A stretch of 56,322 bases of DNA, from IMG/VR virus record IMGVR_UViG_3300051212_000212, positions 1 to 56,322 of that record. One strand, written 5' to 3'. Shown in pieces: positions 910 to 25,183 of this stretch. The translations under genes were made by a program, and so were the position numbers. The notes beneath the pieces were generated by a model that searched no databases, was not told the DNA's origin, and saw nothing but the letters and a program-made list of their open reading frames with translations. The stretch comes from a virus. Each line of letters starts with the position of its first letter. The first letter of the stretch is position 1.

Positions 910-3020
<2,111 letters not shown>

Positions 3021-3024
<4 letters not shown>

Positions 3025-3164
3025 GCGATATAGTTGAAGTAAATGTTGAAACTGGAGAGGTAACTACAAGAAGTTATACTCAAGCAGAAATAGATCGTAT
3101 CCAGGCTTTAGAGCAAAAGATTGCAGAGATGCTTGCAGCGGCAGGAGAAAATAATGGCAATTGA
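3021..3164 (+). CDS. Small 47-residue protein between fibre genes
   Basis: ATG 3021 overlaps the fibre stop as ATGA, and the gene ends inside the next fibre gene (TGA 3162-3164, next ATG 3154). The protein starts [20 protein letters not shown] and ends with a short heptad-like helix ([20 protein letters not shown]), so a small coiled-coil peptide is likely. The tight coupling on both sides supports translation. Similar tiny helical peptides sit beside phage fibres and can act as chaperones or fibre-tip parts; that role is only a guess. No family recognised. Confidence 0.65.
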
Positions 3165-4533
3165 TTTTCCTAATAACCCGTCTCTAAATCAGATATTTAC
3201 ATCTGGAAATACTTCCTGGCAATGGAATGGTTTCACGTGGAACGTTGTTAGAATTTCAACAGGCCCTACGGGTGCAACTGGACCTACAGGCGCAACAGGT
3301 CCTACAGGCTCAACTGGCCCAACTGGTCCTACTGGAGCAAATAGCACAGTAGCAGGTCCGACAGGTCCAACAGGATCTACAGGACCGACTGGCTCAACAG
3401 GACCAACAGGCGCAACTGGTGCAGATAGCACAGTTGCAGGCCCAGCTGGTGCAACAGGAGCAACAGGTCCGACAGGACCAACAGGTGCAAATAGCACAGT
3501 AGCAGGTCCACAAGGACCAACTGGTGCTACAGGCCCAACAGGACCAACTGGTGCAGACAGCACAGTAGTAGGCCCAACTGGCCCAACTGGATCAACAGGT
3601 CCTACAGGCCCAACTGGACCAACAGGTGCAGCAAGCACAGTACAAGGTCCGACAGGACCAACAGGTACTGCAGCATCCATAACATTAGGAACTGTTAGCA
3701 CTGGATCTGCTGGATCAAATGCTTCTATATCAAATGTTGGAAGCGCAACAGCAGCAATATTTAATTTTACTATACCACGTGGAGACACTGGGGCACAAGG
3801 ACCGCAAGGTACAACTGGTGCAACTGGTGCAACTGGTGCAGCTGGCGCAACTGGTGCACAAGGTCCACAAGGACCGCAAGGTACAACTGGCGCAACGGGA
3901 TCACAAGGTCCACAAGGTCCTACAGGCCCAACTGGGCCAGCAGGAACAATAACCTACCCATTATATTCACCAGAATTTAATGCAGCAGTTTTAGATGGAT
4001 TTACATCTATTAAGTCAGCATCAACTGGCGGAACTGGAAGCTGGTTCCCATATTCAGATGTAACATATAACCTTGGTTCATCAACATATAAATGGAATAA
4101 TATTTATAACCGTGTTTCAACAATTAATACATCTGATCAAAGAGAAAAGAAAGATATTATTTCTTCCGATCTTGGCCTTGAATTTATAAAAGATTTAAAT
4201 CCAGTATCTTATAGATTTATAGTTGGTCAAAATTCAGAAGTTTTAGATGAAAATGGTAATCACGTTCTTGATGGAAATGGAAATCCTACATATCAACCAG
4301 AACCAGGTTTAAGATATCATTACGGATTAATTTCTCAAGAAGTAAAACAAACAGTAGATAATCATACTGACAAAGATTTTGCTGGGTGGATTTTAATGAA
4401 TCCGTCTGACCCTAACTCAGAACAAGGTTTACGTTATGGGGAATTTATTGCTCCACTTATTAAAGCTGTGCAAGAATTGTCTGCACAAGTAGAGGCTCTT
4501 CAGCAAGAGATAGAAACTCTTAAAAATCAGTAG
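3154..4533 (+). CDS. Collagen-like tail fibre with S74 auto-cleaving chaperone
   Basis: A 459-residue fibre. ATG 3154 is preferred to the upstream TTG at 3121 because AGGAGAA lies at 3143-3149 and the protein then begins [15 protein letters not shown], a common phage fibre N-terminus. Gly-X-Thr triplets fill about residues 36-170 and 213-264. The C-terminal 135 residues are an intramolecular chaperone of the S74 peptidase family. The SDQREK motif (S327, K332) gives the Ser-Lys dyad, and GLISQEV and a [17 protein letters not shown] helix follow. Known relatives trimerise the fibre and then cut themselves off just before the Ser. A terminal coiled coil completes the domain. Confidence 0.88.
3259..3945 (+). 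repeat. Gly-X-Thr coding repeats in second fibre
   Basis: Two runs of 9-base collagen-like units (about 3259-3675 and 3790-3945), separated by a non-repetitive insert. The second run uses more Gly-Ala-Gln and Gly-Pro-Gln triplets. Segments are identical to parts of the first fibre gene, including 3289-3320 against 2371-2402. Confidence 0.85.
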
Positions 4534-15589: not shown

Positions 15590-18500
15590 ATGGCTGACGA
15601 GCAAATTGTAACTAATATAGTTGCTAATGCCGACTTTTCTAATCTCATCGGAGATTTAAATAAAGTAACGGTAGCGCTCAGTCGCATGCAGTCCGAACTA
15701 AAGTCCACTCAAAGATCTTTAGGTAATCAGATTCGTGCAATCAATACCCAATTCGGTGAGACTCTTAGAAGCACTGGACAGTTCACATCCCATTTCGTAA
15801 CCATATCTTCAGATGTAGAAAAGTTTGGTAGAAGCCTAGACTCAGGCAAGATGAAGTTAGGCCAATACTTTAAGGTATGGCAAGACCATCATAGAACTGC
15901 AGGCGGATTAATTAGAGACCTTGCTAAACAGCAAGTTCAAATGCAAAATGCGGTTCTGCAACCAATAGGTAAAAATGCAGAAGGAATGATGCGCTTTGCT
16001 GTGCATGTTCCTAAAGGCTTAGATTTAATAAGAAACAAAACAGCTTTAACTCGTCAAGAGTTAGCTATTATGAATAAGGTTGTGCAGGACGGAGCACAGC
16101 AATTAATTAACTGGGGTAAAAATACACAGTGGGCTGGTCGTCAGTTAACTGTAGGATTAACCGTACCACTTGTAGCATTCGGCAAAGCAGCAGCAGACGC
16201 ATTTAGAGCGGCAGACCAAGAATTAGTTCGTCTAACAAAGGTTTATGGAGATTTAGGCGAAACAACAACTGCTAATCTGGCACAAGTAAGAAAAGAAGTT
16301 GTAGCAACAGCAAAAGAACTTTCTACTACAATGGGAGTTTCCTTTAAAGACACAATTGCTCTTGGCGCTGATATTGCTGCTACTGGTAAAACTGGAAATG
16401 AACTACTTTCATCTATCTCAGAAACAACTCGTCTTGCAGTTCTTGGTGAGGTTGATCGTCAAGATGCTATGAAAGCAACGCTTGCAATTCAGTCAGCATT
16501 TAAAGCAAATACAGAAGAACTAGCAGAATCAATTAACTTCCTAAACGCAGTTGAAAACCAAACATCAACAACTCTAAACGATCTCGTAGAAGCAATTCCA
16601 AAAGCTGGTCCTGTAATTAAAGGTTTGGGCGGAAGCGTACAAGATCTTGCTCTTTATCTAACTGCTATGCGTGAAGGCGGAATTAACGCAACAGAAGGAG
16701 CGAATGCTCTAAAGTCAGCACTAGCATCTTTGATTAACCCGACAGATGTTGCTGTAAAGAAATTTGAAGGATTTGGAATAGACCTACTTGGTATTGTAAA
16801 TAACAATGCTGGTAATGTAACAAAGACTCTATTAACCCTACAATCAGCATTAGATCAGTTAGATCCTTTGGCTAAGCAGCAGGCAATCGAACAATTGTTT
16901 GGCAAGTTCCAGTTCTCAAGACTAAATGCTTTGTTTGAGAATTTAGGAAAGCAGGGAAGCCAGACACTACAGGTTTTAGATTTGATGAAGGCATCATCAG
17001 AAGACTTGGCAAATATAGCTGGTCGAGAATTAGCGGCAGTAACAGAATCGGCTTCTGGTAAATATCGTAGAGCGCTTGAAACACTAAAAGCAGACCTAGC
17101 TCAAACTGGAGAACAGTTCCTTAATATTGCTACAAAGGTAATTAATGCAACAGATAAAATAATTAATTTTATAAACAATTTGCCCGAACCAATGAAGAAG
17201 ATTCTTGGATTGGCTGGAGGATTTACTGCTCTGGTTGGTCCACTTATCATGCTTACTGGTGTTCTTGGAAACTTCTTTGGCTATATTGTAAAGGGAGTCT
17301 ACCACTTCAAAGCACTTTTCAAGGGTGCAGAAGGATGGAAACTTCTTACTCCAGAAATTATGGCGGCAAACAATGCTGGAACATTAATTGAGAAAACATT
17401 TTATTCTGATGCGAAAGCGGCGGCTGTACTACACAAAGCAATACTAGATTTAACTGCACAGTATAACGGGCTTGCAGAAGCAGCAGCAAGAGCTGCAATT
17501 GGAACTGGAGCAGTATCTACAACAGCAGGAAACCCTGTAATAGTATCTACACCAGGCGGCGGAAAGAGAATTGTAGACCCAACACACCCATTAGCAGGTA
17601 GAGAAGGAACCAGATCATTTGCACATATGGTTCCAAGAAAGACAGATCAACCTGGAAGTATATTTGGAGTTGTTCAATCTTCAGGTCCAGTAAATACTCT
17701 TGTTGGCGAAAATCCTATGATTTACGCAGCAGACGATTTGCCAAATATTCCAGGACTTACAACAATTGAAAGAAGTGTAAAGACTGCTGCTGGAAGACAG
17801 CCTATGGCCGTATCTACAGGAGTTGTAATAGATGAGGTTGCTAAACAGCATGCCTTGATGGCAGCATTGGCAATGCAAGGAAAACAAGAATTAATTGAAA
17901 TTGAAGATACCCTAAAAAATAGCGGAATGCTAACAGTAGGGTTTATGCAAACATTTGATGACATCCTGCCAGAGACTTCAAGAATTGCTAAAAATGCAGC
18001 AGCTGCATCACAAGCAATTATTGCAGAAGTTCAAGCAGGAAAAGTAACTGTAGAACAAGCAAGAGCAAAAATTATTCAATTGAATATTGCAGTAGAACAA
18101 GAAATTATAGAAACAATGTCTTTGCTTGCTGCTTCAAGAGGTGCAGCATTTGACCCATACACAATACCTCTTCTTTCACAGCCCTCAATAACTGCGGCTG
18201 GAAAATCAAATATGAAAGAGCTTTTCCATAAAGAAAATACTCGTGATTTGGTAAATCAAATTGCTACATTGCTTGGAGTTAGAACTTCAGGCGCTGGTTA
18301 TAATTTAGAAACTACAACTCCAGTCGGTGCTCGTAAAGGATATAGGCAGCTTCCATTGCCAGGATTTATAGGCGGAGGACAGATAGCAGACGGAGTATAT
18401 ACTCTAAATGATGGAAATATTGTTCCTGGTCCAAAACATATAAATAGAGATATTCAATTTGGAATATTACCAGTAGATTCATTTGTAGTAAATCAGGGTG

Positions 18501-21500
18501 CTACTAAAAAGAATCTTGAATTTTTGCAAGGAATGGTTGGAGAAAAGAACAATTTAACTGGGGGCGGACAACCAGTAATGCTTTCGCCATTTGAATTTGT
18601 AGTTCCCCCAGAAGTAGTAAATGAAGGAAATAATTTAGATATATTAAAGGGTATAAATTCTGGACAAATAACATTTAGTAATACTGGTGGCAAAATACCA
18701 GCTCTACAATATTTTGCTGCTGTAAATGCTGGAAGAATGGTTGCAAGAAAAACAACTCCATTAAAGGTTACTCTTTCAAAATCAAAGATAAAGAAAATTG
18801 ATCCTAAGTGGTCTCCTAGAAATCCAAAACGAGGAGATACATGGAATTTAAAACCAGCAAGTGGTGGAGTATATGGCGTAGATGATTCTGGGGTAAATGA
18901 AAGGCTTGCAACTACTGGAGCTTCGGCGTCAGAGTATCTTGAGTCTTTAAGAAATGCAGCAGTTATAAAAGGTTCAAGCAACCCATTGGTTGGAACAACA
19001 GATGATTTCTTGGAAGCCCTTGTCTTAGCTGGAAAGATTTCTAAATCTGAAGCAGACAGGGTATTAGTAAGTCTATCTAAAGCTTACACTGCTAAAGTAA
19101 AAGAGATGTCTGTAATTACAGATCCAACAAATCCATATCACGCACTATCTGAGCGGGCAATTATGGATTCTCCATATGCAGCAAAAATTTTGCCTTGGTG
19201 GAAACAGTTTAAGGTTAAAACAGGATCAATAGAAAAAAACAGACCTTCTGGCTCAAGAAGTGGAGCTTCTGGAAGTCCAACATCTACAATTTTAGTTGTA
19301 GATGGTGAAGTTGTAAAAGTAAAACCATTTGAAGGAAGCAGAAAAGACTCTATAAAAGCACTTCATGGTGCAAATAAAGATTGGTCTGATTTTATAGAAG
19401 AGTCTTTGGGAACTGGAGTGGGCGCTGCAATGCTGGGCGGCTTAATACAAAAATTTGCTGCATTCATGCCAGGAAGAAAAGTACAGAAAAAGGTTGGACC
19501 AGAGTTTGAAGAAGAATTTCCTGATTGGGTAATTAGAAATGAAAAAACTAATTTATCCAATACAGACCCATTACATGGACCACTTCAAATTGGAAGATAT
19601 CAACCACCACTAACTATAAGAACTAGGCGTCAGCCAGCAGGAATTATGTATCGTGGTCGTTATACAAAATCTATATGGCAGGGTGGACCAAAGAAGGGCG
19701 AAGCCTATTGGAGCCCAAGACATACAGCTAAAGTTGAAGCATTTTTAACTGGCGATGAGGCAGCACGTGCAAATTATATAATTGAAGAATATATGCGTGG
19801 CGCATATAGCGTTATGGGAATAAAAGGCGCAGCAGAAGCTCTTCGTGCCGCCGCAAAAAAGGTTAGCGGAAGATTTTATAGGGGAATAACTCTTGGAGGA
19901 AGAAGCAGAGTTGGCGGCACAATGTCTGCATTACCAGATTGGTTAGAACAAGAACTTGAGTTGGCAAGAAAGACTGGAGACTTTTCTGGAGTTATAGGAA
20001 GAGAGTTTATTCTACGCAGGTCTTCTTGGAGCGAAAATCCAAAAACAGCTGGAGGTTTTGGAGACTTCTTTATAACAGCAGATGTAAAAAATAGAAATGC
20101 TGTTAAGGCATCAGAGATGTTCCCAGATCTCAGATTCCCAGACCCAAGAACTGGAGAAATGTTGCCAGTTAATGAAAGCGAATCTTTCTTTGGCGGCAAG
20201 TTTAGAATTGTAAAAGCAAGCAAAGATGGAATGTATGTTCAAAGCGTAAACAGCCCTATGGGTGGAAACCGTGCTATGGGCGGAGATGTTAATGCTGGAA
20301 CCCCATACATAGTAGGAGAAAATGGTCCAGAGGTATTTATTCCAAGACAGAGCGGCGGAATAATTCCTAATAACATGATGCAATATAAACTTGCAGGCGG
20401 AGGAATTAAGGCTATATGGAATGCAATTCGTGGAGTTCTTTCTAAAGGCAAAACAGCAAAAGCACCAGCAACTACAGCAGCACCAAGTGGTTCTGGACAA
20501 ATGGAGTTGGATCTAGGAGTACCCGCAGCAGCGGCAGCAGATGATTTAACTGGACAGATGTCTCCGTTTGGATTTAAGGGACAAATGATTGGACTCGGCG
20601 GAAGTTTGGCGGGAGGAGCAATAGGACAATCAATTGGCGGAACACCAGGATTTATGGTTGGTAGCATGGTTGGAAATATGGCAATGTTTATACCACAACT
20701 AATTAAGGCTGCTAAAGTTGCTGGAACATTATTTAAGCTATTAAAGAATTTAACTATAGGCGGAGCAGTAATAACAGCATTAATTTCTATTGGAAAGTAT
20801 TTGCTAGATCTTAAGAAGAAGGCGGAAGATTTAGGAAAGGCTAATAGATTAGCATTTGGCGGAACTCAAGAATCATTTACATCTGTAGGCATAAAGAGCT
20901 ACAAATCAATGTCTGACCGTATTAAAGACATAAATGAGCAATTGGAATTACATCGAGCAAAGGTTAAATCAGTATATGAATCATATACCAAGACTGGTGT
21001 ATCTGGTCTAAGCCTTACAATTGAAGAACTTAGAAAAGCAATTGAAAATGCTAAAACAAGCCAGAAAGAATATGTTGAGGCATTTAACAACATAGATTCA
21101 GGCAGAGTTGTAGAATATGCTGCTCAATTAAAAGCACAATTTGTTGCTATGGGAATGTCAGCACAAGAGGCTACAAATCAAATTTATGCAATAGTTAAAG
21201 CATCAGAAAAGGCTGGGCAGGCGTTTTCAGCAATAACATCAAAGGCATTTACATCAATTAAAGACTCCACTAGTGGCATAGAATTTATTATAAACTATCT
21301 AAAAGAATCTCTTGGAGACACGTTTAACGTAGAAGAGTTTAATACAGGCCTGGACACACTTTTAAATGCTGTATTAATGTATAGAGATTCTTTGGTTGGA
21401 ACAGCGGATGATCAAAAGAATATTAGAGATGAAGCAGATGCAACAGCAGAAACTTTAGAAAAAATTGGTAAAATGAAGGGCTCTGAAAGAATAATAAATG

Positions 21501-24500
21501 CAGAGCAAATAGAACAGCTAAAATCACAAAATATTATATATGGCTCTATACTTAGCAGCACAGAATCTATTGAGAGCATAACTGCTAAGATCCTTCTGTA
21601 TAGCTCTGGATTGGCTGATGTTGTTGATCTAGGAAGAATGTCTGCAGAAAATGCAATAGCTCTTGCTAAAAACTTTGCTACTGTTCAAAATATAATGAAC
21701 TCAGTAACAGAAGATATTCAAGATGATAAATATAGAAATACATTAGAGCCTCTTGCAAAAGTAATTAAAACAGTAAAAGATGATTCTGATAGTGCTGCTG
21801 AAGCAGTAAAGCGTTTAAAAAAGGTTGATGAAGATTATTATAGAAACAAGATGAAGGCTATTGATGATCTTATTAAGAAACTTCAAAAAGAAAGAGACGA
21901 AAGGCTTAAGCTAATCGATCTTCAGGAAAGAGCTTCAACATTTGAAAATCAAATGAAGTCAGCTCAAATTAAATATCAGCAATCATTGACTGCTGGTAAT
22001 TTGGCTCAAGCAGCACAAGAGCAATTAAACATAAATCAATTATCTTCAGAAAGACAAAGACAGCTTTTGCGTGATTCTATTAATGATAAATATAATGATC
22101 AGATAGATAAACTTCAAGCTCAAAAAGATAAATTACAGGACGATCTTGATAAGGCTAATAAAAACTATAATGCCAAAACAGCAGCGGCATCAGAAAAAGC
22201 TGCGGAGCTTGCAAAGCTTCAAGCGTATAGAGACGAACTAGAATTAATAGCACTTAGAAATGTAGATGGACCAATTAGCAAAACTGATTCTATGCGTATT
22301 GAAAATATATTTAAAGAAATGACAGACGCTGGCGGAGAACTAAAGAAAGCAGCTGAAGCAATGCGAGTTGGAAACCCAGCAGTTCCATCGATTAGAGGTA
22401 CTGCAGGAAAGTCATTCTCTCAAGTACTTGTAGACAATTTGAATGCTGATGTAAAGTCTAGGGCTGCTGAAAATAAAACATTTAAAACTGCAGTTGATGC
22501 TTTTGTTAAAGCTGTAGATAAATTTAAGGGAGACAGTACTATCCCAGCAGCACCTGGAGCAGGAGACTATAAAAATGTTAAATTTGGTATAGACTACAGT
22601 TATTTGCATTTCGAAGCACCTTCTGGAAAATATGTAATTAAAGTTAATTCAACTAGATATGACGATACTTTCCAAACCGTTAAAGATAAGGGATGGACTC
22701 CAGTAAGATGGAATGATGTCAGAATGAAAGGCTTTAAGGATCTTGGTACTCAAGGAGAAGACGGAGAACTTTCAGATCAAAATCTTGCTACTGGAGGCTA
22801 TGTAAAGGGTTACTCTAAGGCGGGAGAAATTACAGGAAGTGGTGGAACAGGAACTTCTGATGACATATTAATTCGTGCCTCTAGAGGCGAATTTATGGTT
22901 AATGCAAATTCAGTTGCTAGTGCTGGAATAGAGAATATGCACTCTATTAACCAAAAGGGCGCAGACGGAATTATTGAAGCTGCAATGAGATTGCTTTCTG
23001 GATCAAAGAGATTAAACAAGGGCGGAATTACAGACCAACAGATGGCAAAAACAAATAAGGGTCTTTCTTACTATGATAAGAATATAGATCCAAAATTTGA
23101 ATCTTTTGCAAGGTTAACTGCAAAATTATTTACAAATTCCCCAGGAGGATATATTCTTCCAGCCATGCATGTGGCAAAAGATGTTTTTGGTTCATGGCTT
23201 TTTGGAGCAAAACCAACATTTGGTAAGCGTGGCATATTAAAAGACTTAGATCCAAAAACCTATACACCTTATTTAGAAGCATTCAATATGTCAATGCTTC
23301 ACCCATTCTCAGAAATTGCAAAGGGAAGTGCAACAAAGGGAGACTGGATAAATGCCGCTTTGTTTATGGTTCCACAATCAAAGGCTGGCACAGGCCTATC
23401 AGCAGCGTCAAGAATTCAAATGTCTAAGTCTGGAGCTTTTGCTGCTCTTTCAACTAAGAGATACAAGGATTTTGTTAAATCAATATATCAAACAAAGTAT
23501 GTGGAAAATGATGGACTTAAATTCCCAACACATACAATAGGAACAGATAGCACTAGATTTGGATTTGAGGGATACGGAGAAGATTTATCTGGACTATTAA
23601 AGGCGGGTAAAATAGATGAGATTGTTAAAACCACTCCTGAAGGAATACTAGAGGCTGCATTAAAACTAAATCCTAAGAGTAAAGAAATTAGATCTTTGCT
23701 TGATAATTTTAAAAATAAAAATATTACCCAAAAAGAAATAGAATTTTTAGATCAAATGATTGGCGCTACCTCTATAAGTAATAGAGGAAAGCGTACACAA
23801 TTAGAGCAAGGCGAAGGATTTGCAATGCTTTTGGCTGCCCTTAAGGGAGACAAAAATGCTCAAGATATAGTTAAAATTAAAGCTGGAATTGCTGAAGAGA
23901 TAGTTAAAAAAGAAAGACTTGCAAGAAATAAAGAAGTTGCTGAGTCGTATAAGGGATTTAGACTGGAGGACGGTCCAGTTGAGCCACAAAATGTTCCAGT
24001 AATACATTCTACAAAATATCCTGTTGTAAGGGATAAAAACGGAAATGTAGTTTTACATACCTATGGAGATCAAAATATAGGTACAGATGTAGCGTACCCT
24101 AGAGCATCGCTACACTTTACATTAGAAGATACTGTAAAATCTCACATGCAAGGTCAATGGGATTCTGCACAAAATAAAATAGTCTCTAGATTGTCTACAA
24201 TGATAGACGATAGCGGATTGCCATATCAATTAAATTCCACAGATACATGGTGGATGAGAAATCCTGGACAGCCTCTTAAGATATCTGATGCTAGTGTTAT
24301 TAAGCCGTTTACAAATTATTCTTCTTATGCCGATGAATTAATTTCAAGAGGTTTGATGAAGGCTGGGGACGATACCCCAATTATGGCTATAGATACTAAA
24401 ACTAAAGAAATTTTACATCTAATTAAAGAAAACTACACCGACGCAGATAGAATTAAGATTGCTGAATTGCAAGGGTATTCTGCTGGATATGCTGAAACAC

Positions 24501-25183
24501 TAGTTGGCAAAGAGGCTAATGCCATAGAAGAAACAGCTTTGCAACTTGCAAAACAACAGCTTGGCATTAAAACTTCTGCAGTTAATTTAGAACAACATGG
24601 ACTAGGAAGCAAGAGTCGTCAAGACCATATTTATAGAATAGCAAAAGCACTTGGTTTAAGTAGTGAAATACATTCTGGATCAAGGCCTTATATTATGGAG
24701 AGCCTATTCTCTAAGTCTTTCTTTGGTCCAAATAGAAATACAGAAATAGCAAGCAATAAATTGTGGGTTGATACACAAGAAGCCTTAAGGTCTCTTGCAC
24801 AGCATGGATATTTTAAAACTTTAATTAAAAAAATGAAGAGTGCAGACGACTTTGATTTTGCTCGTGGCGGATACATTAGAAAATTCCATGACCTAAGAGG
24901 ACCTATTCCAGGGCCATATAATGCAGAAGTTGGAGCGCTTGTTCGTGCAAAAACAGAAAGTATTTATCCTACAGGCTATGTAGAATCTCTACAAAATGCT
25001 ACAATGAGTGGAGGAAACACATACGTGCTAAAGAATGAAATTCATGCCTCAGAAGGAATGGATGTAAATCAATTGGCAGATGTTGTTACAAAGAGAACTA
25101 TAGATACAATTAAATCAATTGATTCTGTAAACTTAAAGTCTACGGGAACAAATAGAAAGTTTGGAGGTATGATTCCAGCATGA
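15590..25183 (+). CDS. Giant tape measure protein with embedded enzymatic domain
   Basis: A 3197-residue tape measure, far longer than the usual 800-1800. ATG 15590 lies 11 bases after the gpGT stop. The N-terminal 500 residues match the TP901-like core: ALSRMQSELKSTQRSLG, then AGRQLTVGLTVPLVAFG and MREGGINATEGANALKSALA. Membrane-like segments lie near 539-561, 1666-1710 and 1721-1742, and a strong coiled coil near 2070-2235. Recurrent TMP linkers such as GTPYIVGENGPEVFIP (about 1570) and DDILIRASRGEFMVNANS are present. Residues about 1400-1545 resemble an ADP-ribosyltransferase. Residues about 2800-2900 form another globular insert of unknown type. The tape measure sets tail length and is ejected at infection. 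Confidence 0.93.
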   Translation: MADEQIVTNIVANADFSNLIGDLNKVTVALSRMQSELKSTQRSLGNQIRAINTQFGETLRSTGQFTSHFVTISSDVEKFGRSLDSGKMKLGQYFKVWQDHHRTAGGLIRDLAKQQVQMQNAVLQPIGKNAEGMMRFAVHVPKGLDLIRNKTALTRQELAIMNKVVQDGAQQLINWGKNTQWAGRQLTVGLTVPLVAFGKAAADAFRAADQELVRLTKVYGDLGETTTANLAQVRKEVVATAKELSTTMGVSFKDTIALGADIAATGKTGNELLSSISETTRLAVLGEVDRQDAMKATLAIQSAFKANTEELAESINFLNAVENQTSTTLNDLVEAIPKAGPVIKGLGGSVQDLALYLTAMREGGINATEGANALKSALASLINPTDVAVKKFEGFGIDLLGIVNNNAGNVTKTLLTLQSALDQLDPLAKQQAIEQLFGKFQFSRLNALFENLGKQGSQTLQVLDLMKASSEDLANIAGRELAAVTESASGKYRRALETLKADLAQTGEQFLNIATKVINATDKIINFINNLPEPMKKILGLAGGFTALVGPLIMLTGVLGNFFGYIVKGVYHFKALFKGAEGWKLLTPEIMAANNAGTLIEKTFYSDAKAAAVLHKAILDLTAQYNGLAEAAARAAIGTGAVSTTAGNPVIVSTPGGGKRIVDPTHPLAGREGTRSFAHMVPRKTDQPGSIFGVVQSSGPVNTLVGENPMIYAADDLPNIPGLTTIERSVKTAAGRQPMAVSTGVVIDEVAKQHALMAALAMQGKQELIEIEDTLKNSGMLTVGFMQTFDDILPETSRIAKNAAAASQAIIAEVQAGKVTVEQARAKIIQLNIAVEQEIIETMSLLAASRGAAFDPYTIPLLSQPSITAAGKSNMKELFHKENTRDLVNQIATLLGVRTSGAGYNLETTTPVGARKGYRQLPLPGFIGGGQIADGVYTLNDGNIVPGPKHINRDIQFGILPVDSFVVNQGATKKNLEFLQGMVGEKNNLTGGGQPVMLSPFEFVVPPEVVNEGNNLDILKGINSGQITFSNTGGKIPALQYFAAVNAGRMVARKTTPLKVTLSKSKIKKIDPKWSPRNPKRGDTWNLKPASGGVYGVDDSGVNERLATTGASASEYLESLRNAAVIKGSSNPLVGTTDDFLEALVLAGKISKSEADRVLVSLSKAYTAKVKEMSVITDPTNPYHALSERAIMDSPYAAKILPWWKQFKVKTGSIEKNRPSGSRSGASGSPTSTILVVDGEVVKVKPFEGSRKDSIKALHGANKDWSDFIEESLGTGVGAAMLGGLIQKFAAFMPGRKVQKKVGPEFEEEFPDWVIRNEKTNLSNTDPLHGPLQIGRYQPPLTIRTRRQPAGIMYRGRYTKSIWQGGPKKGEAYWSPRHTAKVEAFLTGDEAARANYIIEEYMRGAYSVMGIKGAAEALRAAAKKVSGRFYRGITLGGRSRVGGTMSALPDWLEQELELARKTGDFSGVIGREFILRRSSWSENPKTAGGFGDFFITADVKNRNAVKASEMFPDLRFPDPRTGEMLPVNESESFFGGKFRIVKASKDGMYVQSVNSPMGGNRAMGGDVNAGTPYIVGENGPEVFIPRQSGGIIPNNMMQYKLAGGGIKAIWNAIRGVLSKGKTAKAPATTAAPSGSGQMELDLGVPAAAAADDLTGQMSPFGFKGQMIGLGGSLAGGAIGQSIGGTPGFMVGSMVGNMAMFIPQLIKAAKVAGTLFKLLKNLTIGGAVITALISIGKYLLDLKKKAEDLGKANRLAFGGTQESFTSVGIKSYKSMSDRIKDINEQLELHRAKVKSVYESYTKTGVSGLSLTIEELRKAIENAKTSQKEYVEAFNNIDSGRVVEYAAQLKAQFVAMGMSAQEATNQIYAIVKASEKAGQAFSAITSKAFTSIKDSTSGIEFIINYLKESLGDTFNVEEFNTGLDTLLNAVLMYRDSLVGTADDQKNIRDEADATAETLEKIGKMKGSERIINAEQIEQLKSQNIIYGSILSSTESIESITAKILLYSSGLADVVDLGRMSAENAIALAKNFATVQNIMNSVTEDIQDDKYRNTLEPLAKVIKTVKDDSDSAAEAVKRLKKVDEDYYRNKMKAIDDLIKKLQKERDERLKLIDLQERASTFENQMKSAQIKYQQSLTAGNLAQAAQEQLNINQLSSERQRQLLRDSINDKYNDQIDKLQAQKDKLQDDLDKANKNYNAKTAAASEKAAELAKLQAYRDELELIALRNVDGPISKTDSMRIENIFKEMTDAGGELKKAAEAMRVGNPAVPSIRGTAGKSFSQVLVDNLNADVKSRAAENKTFKTAVDAFVKAVDKFKGDSTIPAAPGAGDYKNVKFGIDYSYLHFEAPSGKYVIKVNSTRYDDTFQTVKDKGWTPVRWNDVRMKGFKDLGTQGEDGELSDQNLATGGYVKGYSKAGEITGSGGTGTSDDILIRASRGEFMVNANSVASAGIENMHSINQKGADGIIEAAMRLLSGSKRLNKGGITDQQMAKTNKGLSYYDKNIDPKFESFARLTAKLFTNSPGGYILPAMHVAKDVFGSWLFGAKPTFGKRGILKDLDPKTYTPYLEAFNMSMLHPFSEIAKGSATKGDWINAALFMVPQSKAGTGLSAASRIQMSKSGAFAALSTKRYKDFVKSIYQTKYVENDGLKFPTHTIGTDSTRFGFEGYGEDLSGLLKAGKIDEIVKTTPEGILEAALKLNPKSKEIRSLLDNFKNKNITQKEIEFLDQMIGATSISNRGKRTQLEQGEGFAMLLAALKGDKNAQDIVKIKAGIAEEIVKKERLARNKEVAESYKGFRLEDGPVEPQNVPVIHSTKYPVVRDKNGNVVLHTYGDQNIGTDVAYPRASLHFTLEDTVKSHMQGQWDSAQNKIVSRLSTMIDDSGLPYQLNSTDTWWMRNPGQPLKISDASVIKPFTNYSSYADELISRGLMKAGDDTPIMAIDTKTKEILHLIKENYTDADRIKIAELQGYSAGYAETLVGKEANAIEETALQLAKQQLGIKTSAVNLEQHGLGSKSRQDHIYRIAKALGLSSEIHSGSRPYIMESLFSKSFFGPNRNTEIASNKLWVDTQEALRSLAQHGYFKTLIKKMKSADDFDFARGGYIRKFHDLRGPIPGPYNAEVGALVRAKTESIYPTGYVESLQNATMSGGNTYVLKNEIHASEGMDVNQLADVVTKRTIDTIKSIDSVNLKSTGTNRKFGGMIPA
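19787..20224 (+). other. Probable ADP-ribosyltransferase (R-S-E) domain within tape measure
   Basis: In tape-measure residues about 1400-1545 three motifs occur in the order of the R-S-E class: FYRGITL (R1431), SSWSENPKTAGGF (S1479-W-S1481, the S-x-S strand) and NESESFFGGKFRI (E1529-S-E1531, an E-x-E pair). Spacing and predicted beta strands around each fit VIP2/exoenzyme-like mono-ADP-ribosyltransferases. E-x-E would favour Arg modification. A second YRG near residue 1348 precedes the domain. Recognition is by motif only. Confidence 0.6.

Follow-up and report, generated by a model that had tools for sequence, protein, structure and literature searches.

The tape measure gene and its ADP-ribosyltransferase-like domain

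The longest reading frame of the IMG/VR virus record IMGVR_UViG_3300051212_000212, whose full 56,322 bases are referred to here as the window, encodes a tape measure protein (TMP), the ruler of the phage tail. The frame runs uninterrupted from 15590 to 25183 on the plus strand, on which all window TMP features given below also lie, and specifies 3197 residues. The protein was identified by a Pfam match to PhageMin_Tail (E 2.9e-29) and by matches to PHROG tape-measure families. Moreover, it has what is expected of a siphophage TMP, being the product of the longest gene, carrying the TMP domain and lying between the major tail/chaperone genes and the distal tail genes. Residues ~1322-1568 of this protein are predicted to form a mono-ADP-ribosyltransferase (ART) of the R-S-E class (C3/VIP2/Tre1), a prediction supported by conserved motifs and a modelled fold.

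An ART-like domain at residues ~1400-1545 had been proposed from three short motifs. The translation of 19787-20224 agrees with that original prediction, and the motifs occur in the order claimed: FYRGITL from residue 1429 (nucleotide 19874), SSWSENP from 1478 (20021) and NESESFF from 1528 (20171). The location therefore stood, and the extent proved larger. A 22-domain alignment, an AlphaFold2 model and Foldseek searches delimit a conserved segment at residues 1322-1568 (19553-20293). Within it, residues 1385-1556 (19742-20257) form the better-modelled catalytic core, whose confidence (predicted local distance difference test, pLDDT) falls mostly at 63-93 by block and peaks around the three motifs.

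The putative triad begins with R1431 (19880-19882) on strand 1, part of a YRG that reads [YFH]RG across homologues, in all of which the arginine is invariant. On strand 2, S1479-W-S1481 (20024-20032) is the counterpart of S-T-S; it belongs to an invariant RRSSWS, which has W in place of T and, like the classical motif, continues with A..F. Lastly, E1529-S-E1531 (20174-20182) corresponds to the Q/E-x-E of the ADP-ribosylating turn-turn (ARTT) loop. R1431, S1478-S1479-W1480-S1481, E1529 and E1531 are invariant in the 22 distinct homologous domains of the alignment, and R, SSWS and E-x-E likewise in 22 further, more distant contigs; the contig of one copy (L162) ends before E-x-E. Loss of R1431, S1479 and E1531 from close homologues had been named as a point to look for. 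R1431, both serines of S-x-S and E1531 are kept wherever a copy reaches them, and this invariance spans copies that are 34-95% identical. Invariant R, S, S, E and E over such a range is the pattern that a working active site would leave.

The ratio of nonsynonymous to synonymous substitution rates (dN/dS, Nei-Gojobori) of the domain is 0.12-0.27 in nine related pairs, and that of the N-terminal block of the TMP is 0.04 (window against L003). The domain is thus under purifying selection, looser than that on the N-terminal block. A degenerate, unconstrained insert is ruled out by these values.

Predicted fold and profile searches

The AlphaFold2 model was built from the 22-sequence alignment of the 247-residue segment, and residues are numbered 1-247 in this paragraph. 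Much of residues 64-235 is modelled well (pLDDT blocks 63-93), except for a loop at 117-123, where pLDDT drops under 50; residues 1-63 are modelled poorly. R110 lies in strand 102-112, S-x-S at the end of strand 151-160, and E-x-E opens strand 210-223; in the model, the order of motifs and strands is that expected of an ART. The proposed structure prediction and fold search thus pointed to an ART fold. Foldseek returned 56 PDB matches at E<0.001, and the best 50 of the 56 were all ARTs (E 3.8e-5 to 7e-4, probability 0.99-1.00), among them Certhrax, C3bot, a Tre1-type toxin/immunity pair, Vis, iota Ia, C2-I, CDTa, VIP2, HopU1 and C3larvin. Searched against a viral library, the model matched phage VIP2-like ARTs and ARTs of head proteins (MuF, minor capsid). 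The profile search, also proposed with the original prediction, was negative: no ART profile came up when the domain by itself was compared with Pfam, PHROG and PDB sequences, and none was matched by any of the 22 members. The domain, found by no sequence profile, is therefore a diverged branch of the ARTs; a match to a curated profile is a practical aid and does not define the R-S-E class.

Distribution of the domain

The first relative found, a single contig that yielded L002, L003 and L084, carries a domain 94-95% identical to that of the window. Searching with the TMP N-terminal block produced 80 TMP loci; the domain is present in L028 and L076 from this set. Scanning IMG/VR with the domain alignment recovered 27 contigs, and with the core alone 50 contigs, 23 of them new and more distant; the suggested survey of related TMPs for the same insert thus extended it well beyond the window. 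The frame around each copy also encodes the N-terminal block of the TMP; the exceptions are two fragments (L109 and L162) and L002, whose TMP frame is split and whose copy sits in the continuation of the N-terminal block frame. The split falls at L002:4834-4844, where two frames overlap at the equivalent of window residues ~1014-1019, and is either a sequencing error or a real frameshift. No copy outside a TMP was seen in viral contigs, and no copy at all in genome contigs or, by tblastn, in phage records, with strict contig-scan patterns that may miss more distant or free-standing relatives.

Anatomy of the tape measure protein and probable exchange of the domain

Comparison of the window protein with 97 related TMPs resolved conserved blocks and two variable slots. 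The N-terminal block (residues 1-999, 15590-18586) is common to nearly all of the 97. It is succeeded by slot 1 (residues ~1000-1640, 18587-20509), a variable cargo region where coverage drops to 9-34 of the 97. Slot 1 contains a module at residues 1020-1321 (18647-19552) that is also present in some TMPs lacking the ART (e.g. L041 and L061); the ART follows, and directly after it comes the TMP linker motif VGENGPEVFIP (20312-20344), which is matched by PHROG 1538/30701. As a separate observation, the module at 18647-19552 often ends near a conserved H (LHGANKDW, YHSGKPK, FAHTKTP). Further on are a block at residues 1681-2220 (20630-22249) common to about 40-67 of the 97 TMPs, slot 2 at residues 2440-3090 (22907-24859) and a conserved C-terminal tail at residues 3091-3197 (24860-25180), which is 97% identical to L002 beyond a region swapped between the two. 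Both flanks of the ART are common to TMPs that lack it, and its description as an insert between linker segments was borne out. Complete ART-bearing TMPs are longer (median 2512 residues) than the others (2150), the two sets having been sampled differently.

On a tree of the N-terminal block, presence of the ART requires 6 changes, at least 4 of which are forced by well-supported branches. The ART has therefore been gained or lost at least four times. Moreover, the identities of N-terminal block and ART are discordant: 85% against 47% for L103/L028, 66% against 72% for L103/L106, and 98.6% against 71.6% for L096/L102. The simplest reading of this discordance is exchange of the domain between phages. 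The ART is a discrete insert in a variable slot of the ruler and behaves as an exchangeable cassette.

Among annotated TMPs, the closest come from Streptomyces phages, for example Yaboi (38% identity in the N-terminal block), and the gene order around the window TMP matches that of Yaboi. Genes for a DnaB-type helicase, a DnaG-type primase, Pol III alpha and RecA lie 3′ of the TMP gene, and the GC content of the window is 38%. The host is a bacterium, probably an actinobacterium, to judge solely from the relatives of the virus. At 910-4533 are two neighbouring tail-fibre-like proteins with overlapping sets of PHROG family matches.

Other domains in related tape measure proteins

The nearest TMP lacking the ART, L004, has a 270-residue domain in slot 1 (L004:13472-14281, where the window has its ART) with an invariant K, DKDLxxDN, DxG pattern. 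Eight relatives of this domain were found, also within TMP frames, and most of the longer ones are at the same TMP position. The 50 best PDB matches of its model (pLDDT 85) are protein kinases or other enzymes of the kinase fold, with a best E of 1.9e-3, a probability of 0.99 for CtkA and TM-scores of at most 0.42; this is supportive, not conclusive, of a kinase-like identity.

Slot 2 differs between the window (22907-24859) and its closest relative L002 (9472-10275) despite N-terminal blocks that are 99% identical. The window slot 2 (residues 2585-3095) has no family match and only weak relatives in L092, L094 and L099. By eye, the L002 slot-2 family (A4) is ART-like (FKG and YFSTN..A..Y; FKG...YFSTN...EFPQ), with K where R is needed, and we do not claim it as an ART.

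Relatives combine the ART with CHAP and LysM (L028) or with LysM (L076); in the window it is the sole cargo domain identified. The TMP of L028 also has a metallopeptidase-like motif, HELIHVLGAND (L028:13199-14083), in a stretch with no Pfam match. Two very long TMPs, L076 (9530-21031, 3834 residues) and L100 (frame from 6140, 3820 residues), hold more putative cargo by eye: kinase-like DAHGGN..DFG and FHGS..GMGFYGT stretches in both and, in L076, a VanY-like stretch and a second ART-like YRGL stretch. In these two TMPs, only the LysM of L076 is profile-confirmed. We tentatively propose, at a little under even odds, that the TMP of this lineage is an effector magazine, with two recombining slots for host-modifying enzymes (several ART types, kinase-like domains and wall hydrolases) that would be fired with the ruler.

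Proposed role of the domain

We consider the best explanation to be an R-S-E mono-ART cassette that is built into the ruler, ejected at entry and ADP-ribosylates a host protein, and we give this a probability of about two in three. TMPs sit in the tail tube and are ejected into the envelope upon DNA entry (PMC10770324, PMC13277306). The TMP with its ART may be held in the tube in an extended or metastable state and be ejected with the DNA or ahead of it. The domain would reach the cytosolic side and refold at or inside the membrane. With NAD+ taken from the host, it would ADP-ribosylate one of the host's proteins within the first few minutes after infection begins, which may help take-over or block a defence. 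Phages would swap the cassette, perhaps to fit their hosts. Arginine-specific ARTs typically have E-x-E and not Q-x-E, and arginine is therefore the probable modified residue. RNA polymerase is one candidate host target, purely by analogy with T4 Alt. The TMP of Thermus phage P23-45 is fused to an active virion RNA polymerase, for which a site of action at the pore has been proposed, with the TMP extended across the envelope (PMC10770324); enzymatic domains within a TMP can thus be active.

Several points weigh against this explanation. TM-scores to small ARTs are only 0.30-0.50, in part because 83 of the 247 modelled residues are of low confidence and the N-terminal part is disordered. The domain has no match among Pfam models or PDB sequence profiles, and its S-x-S motif has W where classical ARTs carry T. 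A tail tube ~4 nm wide leaves little room for a folded domain of 20 kDa. Lastly, folding of the domain in the virion, its ejection into the cytoplasm, its binding of NAD+ and its host target are all hypothetical.

Of the alternatives, an active ART that works late survives best, and we regard it as improbable. Newly made TMP would modify host or phage proteins in the producing cell before tail assembly, and delivery would be incidental. TMP genes are generally late genes, and selection would keep the same catalytic residues. However, a low-copy structural protein that is soon sealed in a tube would make a poor late enzyme, and exchange of different domains at one slot, together with CHAP and LysM in relatives, fits delivery at entry better. 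Slightly less probable again is an ART fold whose part in the ruler is one of binding or structure, for example through contact with an NAD-binding host protein or with the inner membrane, and which catalyses no transfer. The unusual W in S-x-S would suit such a module, as would the finding of TMPs beside host membrane proteins at entry (PMC13190303), but no copy that extends far enough departs from R, S, S, E and E at these positions. We think it more doubtful still that the ART is aimed at competitors (superinfecting phages, for example) or works outside the cytoplasm, instead of serving host take-over: NAD+ is found in the cytosol, and most of the fold relatives are effectors acting in the target-cell cytoplasm, although roles in several conflicts have been suggested for viral ARTs (PMC9503650). 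A chance motif match or an assembly artefact in an unrelated TMP segment, which the missing Pfam match might suggest, is ruled out by the 50 contigs with the domain, the invariant motifs in homologues, the single reading frame and the independent fold match.

If a mono-ART is indeed delivered by the ruler, non-contractile phages would be able to arm the tail with enzymes that modify the host by inserting these into the TMP, and delivery would come first, at a fixed copy number and coupled to DNA entry. Part of the extra length and mosaicism of long TMPs would be explained, and a catalogue of entry effectors, and hence of host targets, would become available for hard-to-culture bacteria. Moreover, the passage of a globular enzyme through a narrow tube becomes testable.

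Comparison with known systems

Head-packed phage ARTs (Alt, MuF-VIP2 and portal fusions) and injected polyvalent proteins are already known (PMC5512222, PMC9503650, PMC7302621), and an effector magazine in the TMP would be their tail-borne counterpart. Members of the T4 Alt/VIP2 family are likewise phage R-S-E-type ARTs that enter with the DNA (PMC5512222). However, T4 Alt is a separate head-packaged protein, whereas here the ART is a domain within the TMP frame. The MuF-VIP2 and portal-ART fusions (e.g. Microbacterium phage Percival gp4) join an ART to an actinophage virion structural protein (PMC7302621), and MuF-type head-protein ARTs are among the nearest viral fold matches of the TMP domain. 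Their partner is a head protein, whereas the ART described here is a mid-TMP insert. Polyvalent proteins carry several disparate effector domains (ART, kinase, peptidase) on one polypeptide, are encoded among virion genes and are thought to be injected (PMC5512222); their ARTs belong to the H-Y-D clade (Tox-ART-HYD2), in contrast to the R-S-E motifs of the TMP domain. In the actinobacterial contractile-injection effectors Sle1 and Tme, which are related to TMPs, functional domains that vary are joined to a TMP-like scaffold inside a tail-like tube, but these effectors belong to cellular injection systems and consist of a coiled coil and a C-terminal domain, with no ART mentioned (PMC13277306).

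The toxin ARTs Tre1, C3, Certhrax and VIP2 share the predicted fold and the order R, S-x-S, E-x-E with the TMP domain. However, they are only 8-16% identical to it, have no profile match with it and do not lie within a structural virion protein. To our knowledge, the enzymes of TMPs comprise wall hydrolases and one RNA polymerase. An enzyme within the ruler, which the original prediction considered unusual, therefore has precedents in TMP muramidases and in the RNA polymerase of P23-45 (PMC10770324), the latter at the TMP N-terminus and neither an ART nor a cassette swapped in mid-protein. The part that stands is the ART itself: no description of one within a TMP was found in the portion of the openly licensed literature that could be searched, and the term 'tape measure' is absent from the text of both the polyvalent-protein survey (PMC5512222) and the survey of viral ADP-ribose systems (PMC9503650). 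Therefore, while an enzyme fused to a TMP is as such already known, an ART in the TMP as a recombining cassette is new within the searchable literature.
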